Positions 6,465 through 37,731 of a stretch of DNA of 64,000 bases are shown in pieces; position 1 is the stretch's first letter, and every line of letters starts with the position of its first letter. Source of the stretch: Nitrospira sp. (GTDB lineage: Bacteria > Nitrospirota > Nitrospiria > Nitrospirales > Nitrospiraceae); the NCBI GenBank assembly GCA_030692565.1, contig JAUYAO010000054.1, positions 62,001-126,000 of the forward strand. Direction: 5' to 3'. The translations under genes and the position numbers were made by a program. Below the pieces are notes generated by a model, which made no database searches, had not been told where the DNA came from, and worked only from the letters and a program-made list of their open reading frames with translations.

Positions 6465-6908
6465 ATGAAAAAGAGCGGGTATATGGATGACGGGAATATC
6501 ACGTTGTTGGCCAAAGGGGTGGAGCTCAAGGGCGAGATTCGTGTTGATGGCACGGTGCGTATTGATGGCCGTCTGGAAGGGGATATCTACACCAAGGGCC
6601 AAGTCATTGTCGGGGAAGATGGCGTGGTGAAGGGAACGATTACGGCCGGTATATTGATCAGCAGCGGGCGCATCAAGGCGACGATTACCGCGAGCGATCG
6701 GGTGCAATTGCTCAAGACCGGTATCATCATGGGTGAAGTGCATGCGCCGATCTTCTCGATGGAAGAAGGCGCGAAGTTTCAGGGTGTCAGTGACATGGGC
6801 GTCACGACCTGGCCGGAGGATGTCCCGCGGTTGCCGGGTGCTGTTCGGGACATGAATGGCAATCGCAATCGCCCGGTCGCGGTTCTGGGGAAAAAGCCGG
6901 ATCTCTGA
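6465..6908 (+). CDS. Bactofilin (polymer-forming cytoskeletal protein)
   Basis: The 147-residue protein matches the bactofilin/DUF583 pattern: a short disordered N-terminus, then a right-handed beta-helix built from repeated hydrophobic-glycine turns (IRVDGTVRIDGRLEGDIY, then VIVGEDGVVKGTI and ILISSGRIKATI), then a disordered tail. Bactofilins self-assemble without nucleotide and scaffold cell-wall or polar structures, which fits its place just after a PBP1b gene. GGGAG precedes ATG 6465. Its TGA stop forms the first bases of a 124 bp palindromic repeat. Confidence 0.92.
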   Translation: MKKSGYMDDGNITLLAKGVELKGEIRVDGTVRIDGRLEGDIYTKGQVIVGEDGVVKGTITAGILISSGRIKATITASDRVQLLKTGIIMGEVHAPIFSMEEGAKFQGVSDMGVTTWPEDVPRLPGAVRDMNGNRNRPVAVLGKKPDL

Positions 6909-7030
6909 CAGGCTGCTGAAAACGTCCGCCAGCGGCGTTCTCACATCGCTCAGAGGTTCAACGTACGGGAGTACGTCTCGCCTCTTCACTCGTTGCGGCC
7001 TTGCTGGACGGCCGTTTTGAGCAGCCTGTC
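6907..7030. repeat. 124 bp palindromic MITE/REP-like element
   Basis: The two ends are an inverted repeat: GACAGGCTGCTGAAAACG at the left and CGTTTTGAGCAGCCTGTC at the right, with one mismatch over 18 bases. Imperfect complementarity continues inward to a central palindrome ACGTAC-GGGA-GTACGT, so the whole unit can fold into one long hairpin. It has no coding capacity and no obvious target duplication. The left end overlaps the bactofilin stop codon. This looks like a non-autonomous mobile or REP-type repeat. I saw no second copy in this window. Confidence 0.75.
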
Positions 7031-7139
7031 AGTATTGCACTCTCTAGTCTCAAATGCTGTGGGTCTTCACCGCTCCCGTGACAACGCTTCATAAATCTGC
7101 TATCAACGTGACAGCGAAGCATCTCTCTCCCGGCCACGT

Positions 7140-14154: not shown

Positions 14155-14202
14155 CACACCAAGCCGGCGGGCGCTCGCATGAGTACCCGCCGGCTTGGTG
14201 TG
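14155..14202. terminator. Strong hairpin between convergent genes
   Basis: A perfect 17-base stem, CACACCAAGCCGGCGGG and its complement, encloses a 14-base loop. It lies between grxD (plus) and a minus-strand membrane-protein gene and probably ends transcription in both directions. There is no T-run on either side, so termination may need Rho, or the element may be a transcript stabiliser. Confidence 0.6.
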
Positions 14203-17614: not shown

Positions 17615-17645
17615 TTATTCTCCCTTCCCTCCCTTCCCTCAAGCG

Positions 17646-17760
17646 AGGTGATCGGGGTAGTTTCATCTTGCGCGCATTGACCGAACGCCGTCTCTAATTT
17701 GAAAGTATGATCTGATCTTGGGCGTGCGGGCAGCGAGCACGGAAACTACCCCGGTCACCT
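17646..17760 (-). repeat. Variable-arm hairpin repeat, copy A
   Basis: The outer arms of 19 bases (AGGTGATCGGGGTAGTTTC and its partner at 17742-17760) pair with one G-U. On the minus strand the inner core reads GTGCTCGC, a GC-rich spacer, GTTCGG and then AATGCGCGCA. This core is shared with copies at 31135, 31712 and 36619, while the arms are unrelated. It begins 7 bases after the stop of the SDR gene at 17768 and has the same orientation as that gene. Confidence 0.8.
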
Positions 17761-17767
17761 CAGCCCC

Positions 17768-18502
17768 TCATATCCCCCATGCCCCGCTGATCTGGATGTT
17801 CGCCCCGTTTACGTAGCGCGCTTCTTCACTCAGTAAGTATCGCACGGCTGCGACGGTGTCGTCGATGGTGCCGATATAGCCGGCAGGAATGCGCTTCGTC
17901 ATGCCGGCCAATTCTTCCGGTGGCGCGCTGCCGGAATCGATGAATCCGGGCGAGATAGCATTCACGGTGATACCGTGCGACGCGAGCAGCTTGGCCAGCG
18001 TTCGGGTGAGGATGAGCACGCCGGCCTTGGCGATGTAATGTGCGGTGACGTCAGGCTGCGAGATCATCTGATCGGCGTTGGCCATGCTGAAGTTGATGAT
18101 GTGGCCGGATTTGCGGGCTTTCATCCCTGGCGAAACCGCTTTGGCCAGATAGAAGATGGGATGGAGATTGCCATCGAACATCTCGTTCCACCCCTCGACC
18201 GTTTCTTCGAACAGATTCACGCGATGGTAGGGACCTGCGCCGTTAATGAGAACATCAATTTGGCCCCACTTCTGTTCGACCTGAGCCACGAGATTCTTCG
18301 CTGCAACCGGGTCTGACACGTCGCAGCGGATGGCCAGCGCCTGTCCGCCGCGCTCCGTAATGGCCAGTGCGGTCTTTTGCGCATCGGCTTCGCTCGTGCG
18401 GTAGCAGATGGCGATCTTCCAATGCTGTGCAGCCAGGTCGAGCGCGATCCCACGCCCGATGCCCTTGGCTCCGCCGGTGATGAGTGCCACGCGTGTATTC
18501 AT
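17768..18502 (-). CDS. Short-chain dehydrogenase/reductase
   Basis: The 244-residue classical SDR has the cofactor motif TGGAKGIG near residue 9 and NGAG near 87. A Ser precedes the catalytic pair, which appears as HYIAK: His replaces the residue before Tyr, and Tyr and Lys are kept. A PG motif follows (AISPGFIDSG). Family members reduce or oxidise carbonyls with NAD(P)H, and FabG- and FolM-like enzymes are the nearest by feel, but the substrate is undetermined. It leads a minus-strand block with the two glycosyltransferases upstream. A variable-arm hairpin follows the stop. Confidence 0.88.
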   Translation of the reverse strand: MNTRVALITGGAKGIGRGIALDLAAQHWKIAICYRTSEADAQKTALAITERGGQALAIRCDVSDPVAAKNLVAQVEQKWGQIDVLINGAGPYHRVNLFEETVEGWNEMFDGNLHPIFYLAKAVSPGMKARKSGHIINFSMANADQMISQPDVTAHYIAKAGVLILTRTLAKLLASHGITVNAISPGFIDSGSAPPEELAGMTKRIPAGYIGTIDDTVAAVRYLLSEEARYVNGANIQISGAWGI

Positions 18503-30374: not shown

Positions 30375-30695
30375 ATGACTCATCCGATCGTGCAGGATAC
30401 CAAGGGCGGCGCGATCATCACGATTCAGGTCCAATCTAAGGCGTCGAAGTCCGAGTGTGTCGGTCTGCACGGTGATGCCCTCAAGATTCGTGTCGCGGCA
30501 CCCCCGATTGATGGCAGGGCAAACGAGGCCTTGCTTGCGTTCCTCGCAAAGCAGCTCAATGTGCCGCCGTCCGCGTTGGTGATTCATGCCGGGGCCGGAG
30601 GGCGGCACAAACGGGTGCTGTGCACAACGCTGAACGCGGCGGATGTGCTGGCGCGATTGGGCCTGATTGCAGGGAAAGGATCCGTGGCCTCATGA
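30375..30695 (+). CDS. DUF167/YggU family protein (UPF0235)
   Basis: The 106-residue protein matches the YggU family: an IQVQSKASKSE strand, LKIRVAAPPIDGRANEALLAFLAK and a final VLCTTL strand. The family is widespread and small, with no established function. The start at 30375 keeps the full domain. Its stop overlaps the start of the downstream lipoprotein gene (ATGA), so they are translationally coupled. Confidence 0.9.
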   Translation: MTHPIVQDTKGGAIITIQVQSKASKSECVGLHGDALKIRVAAPPIDGRANEALLAFLAKQLNVPPSALVIHAGAGGRHKRVLCTTLNAADVLARLGLIAGKGSVAS

Positions 30696-31126
30696 ACAGA
30701 TGGGCGGTGTCTTTCGTTGGTGCGCTCTGTGTGGCGACGTCGGCTTGTTCGAGCGTGAAGCCGGTCTTGTATCCCAATCCGCATTTCCAATCTGTCGGGA
30801 AAGATATTGCAGAACAGGATATCGAAGCCTGCAAGCGATTGGCCGAGTCTGCCGGTGCGGAAGAGGGTAGCGGAAAAGCCGGACGTGTAGCCGGCAGTAC
30901 GGCAGCCGGCGCGGGCATCGGTGCAGCTGCCGGTGCGGTCGGTGGAGCCATCTCCGGTGCCGCCGGGCATGGTTCTGCGATCGGAGCTGCAAGCGGGGCT
31001 GTGTGGGGATTGCTCACGGGAATCTTCAGCGCCACATTCGGACCATCTCATCCGCCGGAGGCCTATACGAATTTTGTGAATCGTTGCTTGCATGAGAAGG
31101 GGTATGAGGTGACGGGGTGGCAGTGA
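30692..31126 (+). CDS. Glycine-zipper lipoprotein, paralogue 1
   Basis: The 144-residue protein has a lipoprotein signal (MNRWAVSFVGALCVATSAC), with Cys19 the predicted lipidated residue. After a polar segment comes a glycine-zipper region (AAGAGIGAAAGAVGGAISGAAG and GSAIGAASGAVWGLL) that could pack in or against the outer membrane. It ends in CLHEKGYEVTGWQ. A paralogue of exactly the same length is encoded at 31271. The function is unknown; similar proteins occur as outer-membrane stress lipoproteins. A variable-arm hairpin begins 8 bases after the stop. Confidence 0.85.
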   Translation: MNRWAVSFVGALCVATSACSSVKPVLYPNPHFQSVGKDIAEQDIEACKRLAESAGAEEGSGKAGRVAGSTAAGAGIGAAAGAVGGAISGAAGHGSAIGAASGAVWGLLTGIFSATFGPSHPPEAYTNFVNRCLHEKGYEVTGWQ

Positions 31127-31134
31127 TGGAGAAG

Positions 31135-31231
31135 GCCGGGTGAATCGGTGGGGTTCCTTGCTCGCTGTCCGCGCACGATCAGAATGTGCTCGGACAATGC
31201 GCGCAGTCGGAACCTCACCGATTCATCCGGC
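31135..31231 (+). repeat. Variable-arm hairpin repeat, copy B
   Basis: The arms GCCGGGTGAATCGGTGGGG and their partner at the right end pair over about 23 bases with two mismatches or G-U pairs. The core reads TTGCTCGCTGTCCGCGCA, then GTGCTCGGACAATGCGCGC. It lies between the two paralogous lipoprotein genes, directly after the first stop codon. Confidence 0.8.
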
Positions 31232-31270
31232 GAAGGGAGAAGAGAAGAAAGAAATCGGAGGGTGCTAGCT

Positions 31271-31705
31271 GTGTCGAATCGATTGTGGCGGACATGTGTT
31301 GCAGTGATACTGCTGCTGAGTTTTGGGGCCTGTGTGGCACCGGGGCCGGTGTTGCGCTCAAACAAGCATCTGCAATTGAGCGGGAAGGAAGGGGCGGAAC
31401 AGGATATTTCAGCCTGTCAGGACAAAGCGGAACGGGCCGGGTTGAAATCCGGAGTGAACCGCTCTGGGAGTATCGCCAGCGGCGGGGTGTTGGGATTGAT
31501 CATCGGGGCGGTCGGCGGGGCTTCAGCCGGCTTGATCGGAGGCGGTGTGGGTGTTGCGATCGGCGCGGCCGCCGGCGGCGGATTGGGTTTCATCACCGGA
31601 CTGGCCGCTGGCGCATACAAACCGGCGAATCCTGATCCGGCCTATGCCGACTCTGTCGTGCACTGTCTTATTGAGAAAGGCTACGATGTCAGCGGATGGG
31701 AGTGA
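31271..31705 (+). CDS. Glycine-zipper lipoprotein, paralogue 2
   Basis: The 144-residue product from GTG 31271 (GGAGG eight bases upstream) is a paralogue of the gene at 30692: lipoprotein signal ending SFGAC, a short KHLQLSGKEGAEQDISAC segment, a long glycine zipper (GLIIGAVGGASAGLIGGGVG and onward) and a C-terminus ending CLIEKGYDVSGWE. Shared positions such as the KE/KD-AEQDI-AC motif and the GW ending show a tandem duplication. The frame can be extended upstream, but that part overlaps the hairpin and lacks a ribosome site. Confidence 0.82.
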   Translation: MSNRLWRTCVAVILLLSFGACVAPGPVLRSNKHLQLSGKEGAEQDISACQDKAERAGLKSGVNRSGSIASGGVLGLIIGAVGGASAGLIGGGVGVAIGAAAGGGLGFITGLAAGAYKPANPDPAYADSVVHCLIEKGYDVSGWE

Positions 31706-31711
31706 GGGGGG

Positions 31712-31811
31712 AGGCCTAGGCATCGGGGTTGTTTCGTGCTCGCCCAACGCGCGGTCTCAGAAGACCCTCGTTGGATGCGCGCAATAGAAACAACTCCCCC
31801 TGCCTAGGCCT
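31712..31811 (+). repeat. Variable-arm hairpin repeat, copy C
   Basis: The arms begin AGGCCTAGGCATCGGGGTTG and pair with the right end (GAAACAACTCCCCCTGCCTA and onward), with a small bulge. The core reads GTGCTCGCCCAACGCGCGG, an inner GGTCT/AGACC stem, then CTCGTTGGATGCGCGCA. It starts 6 bases after the stop of the second lipoprotein gene. The arms do not resemble those of copy B. Confidence 0.8.
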
Positions 31812-31819
31812 ATAGTGAG

Positions 31820-31860
31820 TGATTGGGGTGTTCGGACAATGCGCGCAGTGAAACCAATCG
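31820..31860 (+). repeat. Short form of the hairpin repeat, copy D
   Basis: Only the right half of the core is present (TTCGGACAATGCGCGCAG), flanked by short arms GATTGG and CCAATC. It is probably a deletion derivative lying just behind copy C, about 80 bases from the end of the convergent gene. Confidence 0.5.
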
Positions 31861-31938
31861 CCAACGGAATCTAGAGAGTGAAAAGAGCGAAGAAATATCT
31901 GCAAACGCAGGATCGTGGATAGCGCGGGGGAATCTTTC

Positions 31939-36211: not shown

Positions 36212-36622
36212 ATGTCCGATACATCTGCGCGACCCGCGGTTCCGCCGTGGCTCTATAAATTGTTTACGGGGCATCAATATCCCTATGTCCGTCGGCTGGC
36301 GAAGTTCGGCCAGTCGGTGGTTCCTGGCGAGGATCGTCCGGAGCCCACCAAGGACATGATCGACGCCAAATTCTGGGAGGTCTATCCGCGCTGTTGGGTC
36401 AAGATCCGTCAAGAGGTCAAGGTCGGGATGATCGTGGTCTTTCACGACCTGGGCGAGTATCCGGCAGGCGGGTATCAGGCCCTGGTGGACGATCCTGAAG
36501 CGTTCCTGTCGGCGACCTACGGCAAGAAGAAGATCAAGGTCAATTTCTATGACGGGGATAATTTTGTGTGCACGATCAATTTCAAGGTGGCGGGTTGGAC
36601 AGAGCACGAGGGAGAGCATTGA
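36212..36622 (+). CDS. Hypothetical protein following the VWA gene
   Basis: The 136-residue soluble protein has no signal or membrane segment. Readable features are KLFTGHQYPYVRRLAKFGQS, DAKFWEVYPRCWVKIRQEVKVGMIVVFHD and YGKKKIKVNFYDGDNF, suggesting a compact alpha-beta fold. I do not recognise the family. It is four bases behind the VWA gene and so probably belongs to the same complex or client pathway. The stop codon lies inside the left end of hairpin copy E. Confidence 0.75.
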   Translation: MSDTSARPAVPPWLYKLFTGHQYPYVRRLAKFGQSVVPGEDRPEPTKDMIDAKFWEVYPRCWVKIRQEVKVGMIVVFHDLGEYPAGGYQALVDDPEAFLSATYGKKKIKVNFYDGDNFVCTINFKVAGWTEHEGEH

Positions 36623-36737
36623 CGGGTTCAGCGCATCCGTCGTGCTCGCGCCCCGCGCGCGGGATTGATGGATGGAAGAGCTGTTGCGGGCGGCGCTCGG
36701 TGCATGCGCGCAGTGAAGGATGCATTGAACCCGTCAA
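36619..36737 (+). repeat. Variable-arm hairpin repeat, copy E
   Basis: The arms TTGACGGGTTCAGCGCATCC and the partner at 36718-36737 pair over 20 bases with two mismatches. The core reads CGTGCTCGCGCCCCGCGCGC, a spacer, then GCGCTCGGTGCATGCGCGCA. The element begins at the stop codon (TGA 36620-36622) of the hypothetical gene and has the same orientation. Confidence 0.8.
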
Positions 36738-36786
36738 GAAGCATGGGGAGTGGAGAGAGAAGGGGCCAAGACTTAGGAGCTGAGGT

Positions 36787-37731
<945 letters not shown>

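Follow-up and report, generated by a model that had tools for sequence, protein, structure and literature searches.

A 64,000-nt stretch of a Nitrospira genome (hereafter the window) carries two lipoprotein paralogues, each followed directly behind its stop codon by a long hairpin; two further full copies of this hairpin and one remnant lie elsewhere in the same window, which is located on contig 54 of a 4.17 Mb genome (G000). What are such hairpins doing at gene ends, and which of their two strands carries the structure that matters? Palindromic repeats past genes are already known, but one can rarely tell which of the two strands their structure serves. A preliminary description of the window considered either a function at the 3' end of the transcript, termination or protection, or an insertion targeted to gene ends.

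Table 1. Hairpin copies in the window and the genes next to them (positions in the window; covariance-model matches in coordinates of contig 54).
Feature	Position	Strand	Description	Model match (contig 54)	Core start past stop (nt)
Hairpin copy A	31133..31233	+	Core 31159-31205, type TGTCCG; 3' of lipoprotein paralogue 1	93133-93233, E 1.3e-23, 96.3 bits	32
Hairpin copy B	31711..31812	+	Core 31737-31783, type CCAACG; 3' of lipoprotein paralogue 2	93711-93812, E 8e-17	31
Hairpin copy C	17641..17765	-	Long-core variant, core 17669-17739; 3' of SDR gene	79641-79765 minus, E 1.5e-14	28
Remnant copy D	31816..31861	+	Right core half (TTCGGACAATGCGCGCAGTG) between short arms GATTGG/CCAATC; read from sequence		
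Hairpin copy E	36616..36740	+	Long-core variant, core 36643-36712	98616-98740, E 8e-13	20
Glycine-zipper lipoprotein, paralogue 1	30692..31126	+	Gly-zipper_OmpA PF13436, E 2.4e-8; start predicted		
Glycine-rich lipoprotein, paralogue 2	31262..31705	+	Clusters with paralogue 1 (all-against-all BLASTP); no Pfam match for the longer frame tested; start predicted		
SDR family oxidoreductase, precedes copy C	17768..18502	-	PF13561, E 3e-50		
136-aa gene, precedes copy E	36212..36622	+	No Pfam match		
Malate dehydrogenase-like gene, 3' of copy E	36787-37731	+			

The left outer arm occupies the gap between stop and core (Table 1), and the hairpins A, B, C and E therefore start 0-8 nt past the stop codon. 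This confirms the placement first described for them, within about 8 nt of the stop and oriented like the preceding gene, including copy C on the minus strand. In copy E, the left arm, TTGACGGG, contains the TGA of the preceding gene. Copy D has lost its left core half, is not preceded by a stop codon and was not detected by the covariance model. The suggestion that the lipoprotein gene and its hairpin had been duplicated together finds no support, because the core subtypes of copies A and B differ and their arms are unrelated; moreover, each paralogue retains its own core subtype at several orthologous loci.

The hairpin consists of a core, TGCTCGC-N6-C-(17 nt)-T-N6'-ATGCGCGCA, flanked by outer arms of 20-27 bp; a variant of the core with a longer loop (70-71 nt) is present in copies C and E. 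Written as a structure, the invariant core reads 5'-TGC-T-CGC-N6-C-stem/loop-T-N6'-AT-GCG-C-GCA-3'. The sequence of the arms drifts while their pairing is kept, to the point that in old copies the arms are wholly dissimilar and yet paired. Thus, 76.4% of the alignment cells are paired, compared with 64.4% after shuffling, and 23 of the 32 pairs of the tested structure are altered on both sides (16/16 in the outer arms, 7/16 in the core). The covariation score of 0.341 (0.153 in shuffles) was reached by none of 500 shuffles and was lower at every slid register. Copies that spread recently resemble one another in their arms as well (GGGAGCGGCCAGGTGCCCTTCT ... GTAAAGGGCAGCCTTGGCCACTCCC), which indicates that the arms are part of the element. 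No hairpin matched Rfam 15 above the gathering score (best chance match, E 0.86), and we found no paper describing such a repeat family in Nitrospira. These structured repeats of about 100-125 nt apparently form a Nitrospira-specific family that had not been described before.

In the host genome, the exact pattern matches 13 copies and a covariance model trained on 53 diverse copies finds 33, including A, B, C and E. The same model finds 1 to 26 copies in seven related genomes and none in an eighth, the lowest counts (0 and 1) falling in a clade without exact cores. When the 18-base core pattern was compared with a collection of species genomes, the records listed were from Nitrospira or Nitrospiraceae/Nitrospirae with two exceptions, a chance match in Amycolatopsis and a record bearing the label Nitrosospira; among the records listed, the family is all but restricted to Nitrospira. 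An exact core match is also present in a contig of a viral collection (L163, IMGVR_UViG_3300048854_000095), possibly a Nitrospira prophage or host contamination.

The genus sample was capped in number and consists partly of metagenome assemblies, and the copies are related, so that the counts given below are not independent events; clustering was applied where it mattered. Among the 142 copies sampled across the genus, 70 have their core at most 50 nt (14-46 nt) past a stop codon of the same strand, and none occupies the mirror position, at most 50 nt before a stop of the opposite strand. A co-directional upstream gene was recorded 101 times, against 31 times for an opposed downstream gene (p about 8e-10). 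In the host genome, for which the tally was based on covariance-model matches and their flanks, 17 of the 28 typed copies lie within 50 nt past a same-strand stop and none in the mirror position. Genes at these loci were called with a home-made, simple codon-likelihood caller. Genome-wide placement is thus non-random, as the first description of the window had led one to expect, and the orientation of the hairpin to the preceding stop is locked. The distance from stop to core peaks at 20-34 nt, which equals the arm length, and the hairpin therefore begins at the stop codon; copies found 78-113 nt past a stop are mostly nested inside an outer hairpin which itself starts there. About half of all copies do not lie directly 3' of a stop, some of them being nested, and the initial statement that the hairpins always follow a stop codon holds for the four full copies of the window and not for the family. 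Next downstream of the post-stop copies is a co-directional gene in 56 of 66 cases, and conserved operons harbour copies at atpD-atpC, ribBA-ribH, folD-metF and infA...rpsM (gene names assigned by reading the protein sequences).

Two explanations of this placement were rejected. The element does not appear to supply the stop codon itself, since stop usage is like that of other genes (p 0.15) and stop triplets at the left end of copies not at stops are not enriched (24 vs 25). Targeting of a replication strand was suggested by 44 co-directional copies against 21, but the ratio is 12 to 13 in G022 (25 copies), and gene orientation is probably enough to account for the skew.

The two strands of the hairpin are not equivalent. 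Isolated mismatches in the arms, scored when single and flanked by at least three Watson-Crick pairs, are A.C in 68 cases and G.U in 15. Such in-stem mismatches were preferred to a count at equal alignment cost, which reflects the purine bias of ragged, unpaired ends. With one count per mismatch per cluster (60-80% identity), A.C still prevails by 50-64 to 13-14 (p below 1e-5); if the clustering is so coarse that almost all sequences fall into two groups, the significance drops to p about 0.01-0.07. An A.C on the mRNA-sense strand corresponds to a wobble pair, G.T or G.U, on the opposite strand, and the fixed core mismatches, T.C and C.T, read G.A on the complementary strand. The antisense arms are also the more stable ones, in 46 comparisons against 14 (DNA parameters, 60% deduplication); the preference is found with RNA parameters too, and is the same in post-stop and other copies, which makes it a property of the element and not of its context. 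Unrelated (non-core) post-stop palindromes at the same loci, taken as a control, prefer the sense strand (18 vs 3). This opposite sign speaks against a mutational asymmetry common to gene ends in general; in addition, hardly any strand skew is seen at fourfold-degenerate sites. We read these mismatch counts and calculated stabilities as suggesting that selection acts on the strand complementary to the mRNA, either as single-stranded DNA or as antisense RNA.

The spacer between atpD and atpC allows the fate of the hairpin to be followed at one locus. In 74 genomes, a core hairpin directly past atpD is present in 52 and degenerate in 2, an unrelated GTGA-type palindrome is found in 7 and there is none in 13. 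Their distribution over the atpD tree is patchy and requires at least 15 changes. L225 and L231 are 97.6% identical at the end of atpD and 94% at the start of atpC, and their spacers are unrelated; L208 and L231 are only 85% identical in atpD and 88% in atpC, yet their spacers are 92% similar. Judging from these alignments, the spacer appears to have been exchanged whole, with its limits at the two genes, which recombination in the flanks or movement of the element could each bring about, and the hairpins seem to be swapped between species.

Such replacement bears on the proposal, in line with the 3'-end function considered in the preliminary description, that the hairpin works in the sense-strand mRNA as an intercistronic or 3'-terminal structure, selected in cis, which stabilizes the upstream transcript or slows the ribosome. 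The tight and oriented placement past stops speaks in favour of it; at least two unrelated hairpin families fill the atpD-atpC gap across species, as if a hairpin were useful there, and in Escherichia coli translation is lowered by REP hairpins that lie no more than 15 nt from a stop (PMC12306157). However, pairing and stability favour the antisense strand, a T-tract is almost absent, and most of the 13 genomes that are hairpin-free at atpD-atpC (eight of them a single clade) have spacers of 47-51 nt. We regard this explanation as rather unlikely. Transcript protection in particular is weakened, not eliminated, by the better preservation of pairing on the mRNA-complementary strand. A host function of the hairpin at gene ends is possible, as is, by the precedents of REP and ERIC, some cis effect on mRNA or translation.

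Copies of the hairpin also lie within one another. Sixteen have the left half of another core element on one side and its right half on the other; all of them share the orientation of the outer copy and none is reversed. Several copies nested in one core type have the 8-bp repeat TCAGAAGG at both junctions, resembling a duplication. A general search for target-site duplication found no excess of 8-mers around the copies (456 vs 461 in swapped flanks), and this composite may therefore simply have spread. No enzyme that could move the repeats was found. The idea of an insertion targeted to gene ends gains from dispersal, same-orientation nesting and spacer exchange at atpD-atpC, and loses from the fact that neither such an enzyme nor a general target duplication was found. 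An autonomous form, with a gene between the core halves, was rejected: distant half-pairs merely joined separate or nested copies, and no copy bore an ORF.

One could alternatively see here a passive palindromic repeat, the survivors of random insertion between genes, whose arm pairing is renewed by template switching of DNA and not by selection. Perfect stems can both arise and be restored through template switching (PMC8794818), and the arms diverge freely between loci; but random insertion would yield neither the 70 to 0 orientation at stops nor the 16 to 0 orientation of nesting, and we find this account improbable. We consider it very improbable that the hairpin is an antisense RNA element, active in transcripts heading for the 3' end of the gene upstream and, for instance, blocking antisense transcription. 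Folding is better on the antisense strand, RNA parameters included, but no promoter-like site was found in the window region and copies that are not post-stop show the same polarity. Termination, whether by ordinary or by unusually shaped intrinsic terminators, is scarcely credible despite the long G+C-rich stems 3' of stops, given that a T-rich tail follows 2 of 69 post-stop copies, that so many of them precede a co-directional gene, as at atpD-atpC, ribBA-ribH and infA-rpsM, and that ordinary terminators with a hairpin and a T-tract occur separately in these genomes (L095).

The explanation that we favour, with moderate confidence, is that of a structured mobile repeat, REP- or MITE-like, whose bottom strand is recognized in its folded form and which is placed at gene ends or retained there; in appearance, the hairpins are closer to mobile gene-end modules than to ordinary terminators. 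The element would spread, or be exchanged, as a folded single (bottom) strand; the one-sided AT bulge, together with the two fixed mismatches that read G.A on this strand, would be what a putative nuclease or recombinase recognizes. It would go to gene ends, or survive there, because at such a location it would break nothing and would not end transcription. Effects on the mRNA, such as partial 3' protection or a reduced output of the following cistron, would be of secondary importance. A point against this mobile-repeat reading is that spacers may have been exchanged through conventional homologous recombination involving atpD and atpC; moreover, many of the genomes are metagenome assemblies.

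In kind, the Nitrospira hairpins come closest to REP and MITE-like repeats. As in the REP/RAYT system, they are palindromic, dispersed and intergenic, carry stem mismatches and lie near the 3' end of the ORF that precedes them; REP families of several species lie less than 20 bp past it (PMC3733652). REPs, however, measure 20-40 nt, whereas the Nitrospira hairpin has about 100 nt, with variable arms around a fixed core. The terminal REP tags are absent: of the 123 arm-bearing copies, 6 have GTAG and 1 has CGTC at the left end, and G before TAG stops is not enriched (p 0.67). The Y1 transposase (PF01797, TnpA-REP) had no match in two copy-rich genomes, G052 (a single contig, 11 copies) and G057 (two contigs, 14 copies). 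Membership of the GTAG/CGTC REP-RAYT group was rejected on these grounds. ERIC/IRU, Correia/NEMIS, RUP and other bacterial MITEs are likewise stable long stem-loops, of about 100-200 bp, that are transcribed between genes, and the effect of ERIC on mRNA in Yersinia depends on its orientation (PMC2229807). The Nitrospira hairpins differ from MITEs in that a general target duplication was not found around them, their arms diverge with compensation, and they are nested one way in each other's loops.

Integron attC sites offer another parallel: they too lie directly 3' of a gene and are oriented with it, have variable paired arms and one-sided bulged bases, and fold as the bottom strand (PMC3053210), the strand also preferred by the Nitrospira hairpins. 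In contrast to attC, the Nitrospira hairpin is conserved in the middle, and no array of gene cassettes was seen. The R boxes that enclose attC (RYYYAAC/GTTRRRY) occur in none of 141 copies, and the hairpins were rejected as attC sites. A full integron integrase above the TIGR02249 cut-off is encoded in only 8 of 79 genus genomes, the host included, with fragments in many others. The full integrase of the host (464 bits) is located at positions 1591-2526 of contig 9 (L277), near an IS200-like Y1 transposase at 463-825. By analogy, we tentatively suggest, as a more specific and rather doubtful possibility, that the hairpins are bottom-strand recognition sites of a putative Nitrospira single-strand recombination system that writes, nests and swaps gene-end hairpin cassettes. 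Such a system would share the logic of attC, but with its conserved signal in mid-hairpin and without gene cassettes. Horizontal regulatory transfer (intergenic-region switching) is similar in that non-homologous intergenic alleles are reportedly exchanged between strains while the flanking genes are kept; in Nitrospira, what is exchanged is not a promoter but a hairpin at a gene end, with an operon gene on either side.

The orientation lock, the antisense preference with a control of opposite sign, one-way nesting and the turnover of spacers make the question of DNA versus RNA directly testable. The same four observations point to an unrecognized mobile system in Nitrospira, a globally important genus of nitrifiers. 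If the placement at gene ends is regulatory, the ratios of ATP synthase subunits in Nitrospira would be among the traits touched.

Several other palindromes were noted at these loci. A small insert, composed of a hairpin with the loop TCTYGG followed by GGGTGGGTGGGTGAGAA, is found in the core element, at its AT bulge, in L064, L131, L173 and L210; the same TCTYGG-loop insert lies inside a second palindrome family (L070, L044) and is possibly another nested mobile module. This second family, of about 125 nt (CAGGATGCTGAAAAAG...CTTTTTGAGCATCCTG), has variable arms and a fixed G.G mismatch and also starts at stops. Its members include positions 6905-7032 (+) of the window as well as L090, L148, L133, L152, L072 and L081, and its loop can hold the core element. 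Low-complexity palindromes made of quasi-repeats of roughly 8 nt (GGTTTGTCT, CGTGAAAGGT, AGTTCTGAG, GGTTCGAG) lie directly past stops with the G-rich arm first, in L138, L150, L158, L126, L083, L118 and L116 and at atpD-atpC of L178, L184, L195, L203, L204, L218 and L233; one type of these stands in for the core hairpin at atpD-atpC in some genomes. Finally, a perfect 17-bp stem with a 14-nt loop, unrelated to the core family and without a T-tract, is situated between convergent genes at positions 14155-14202 of the window.
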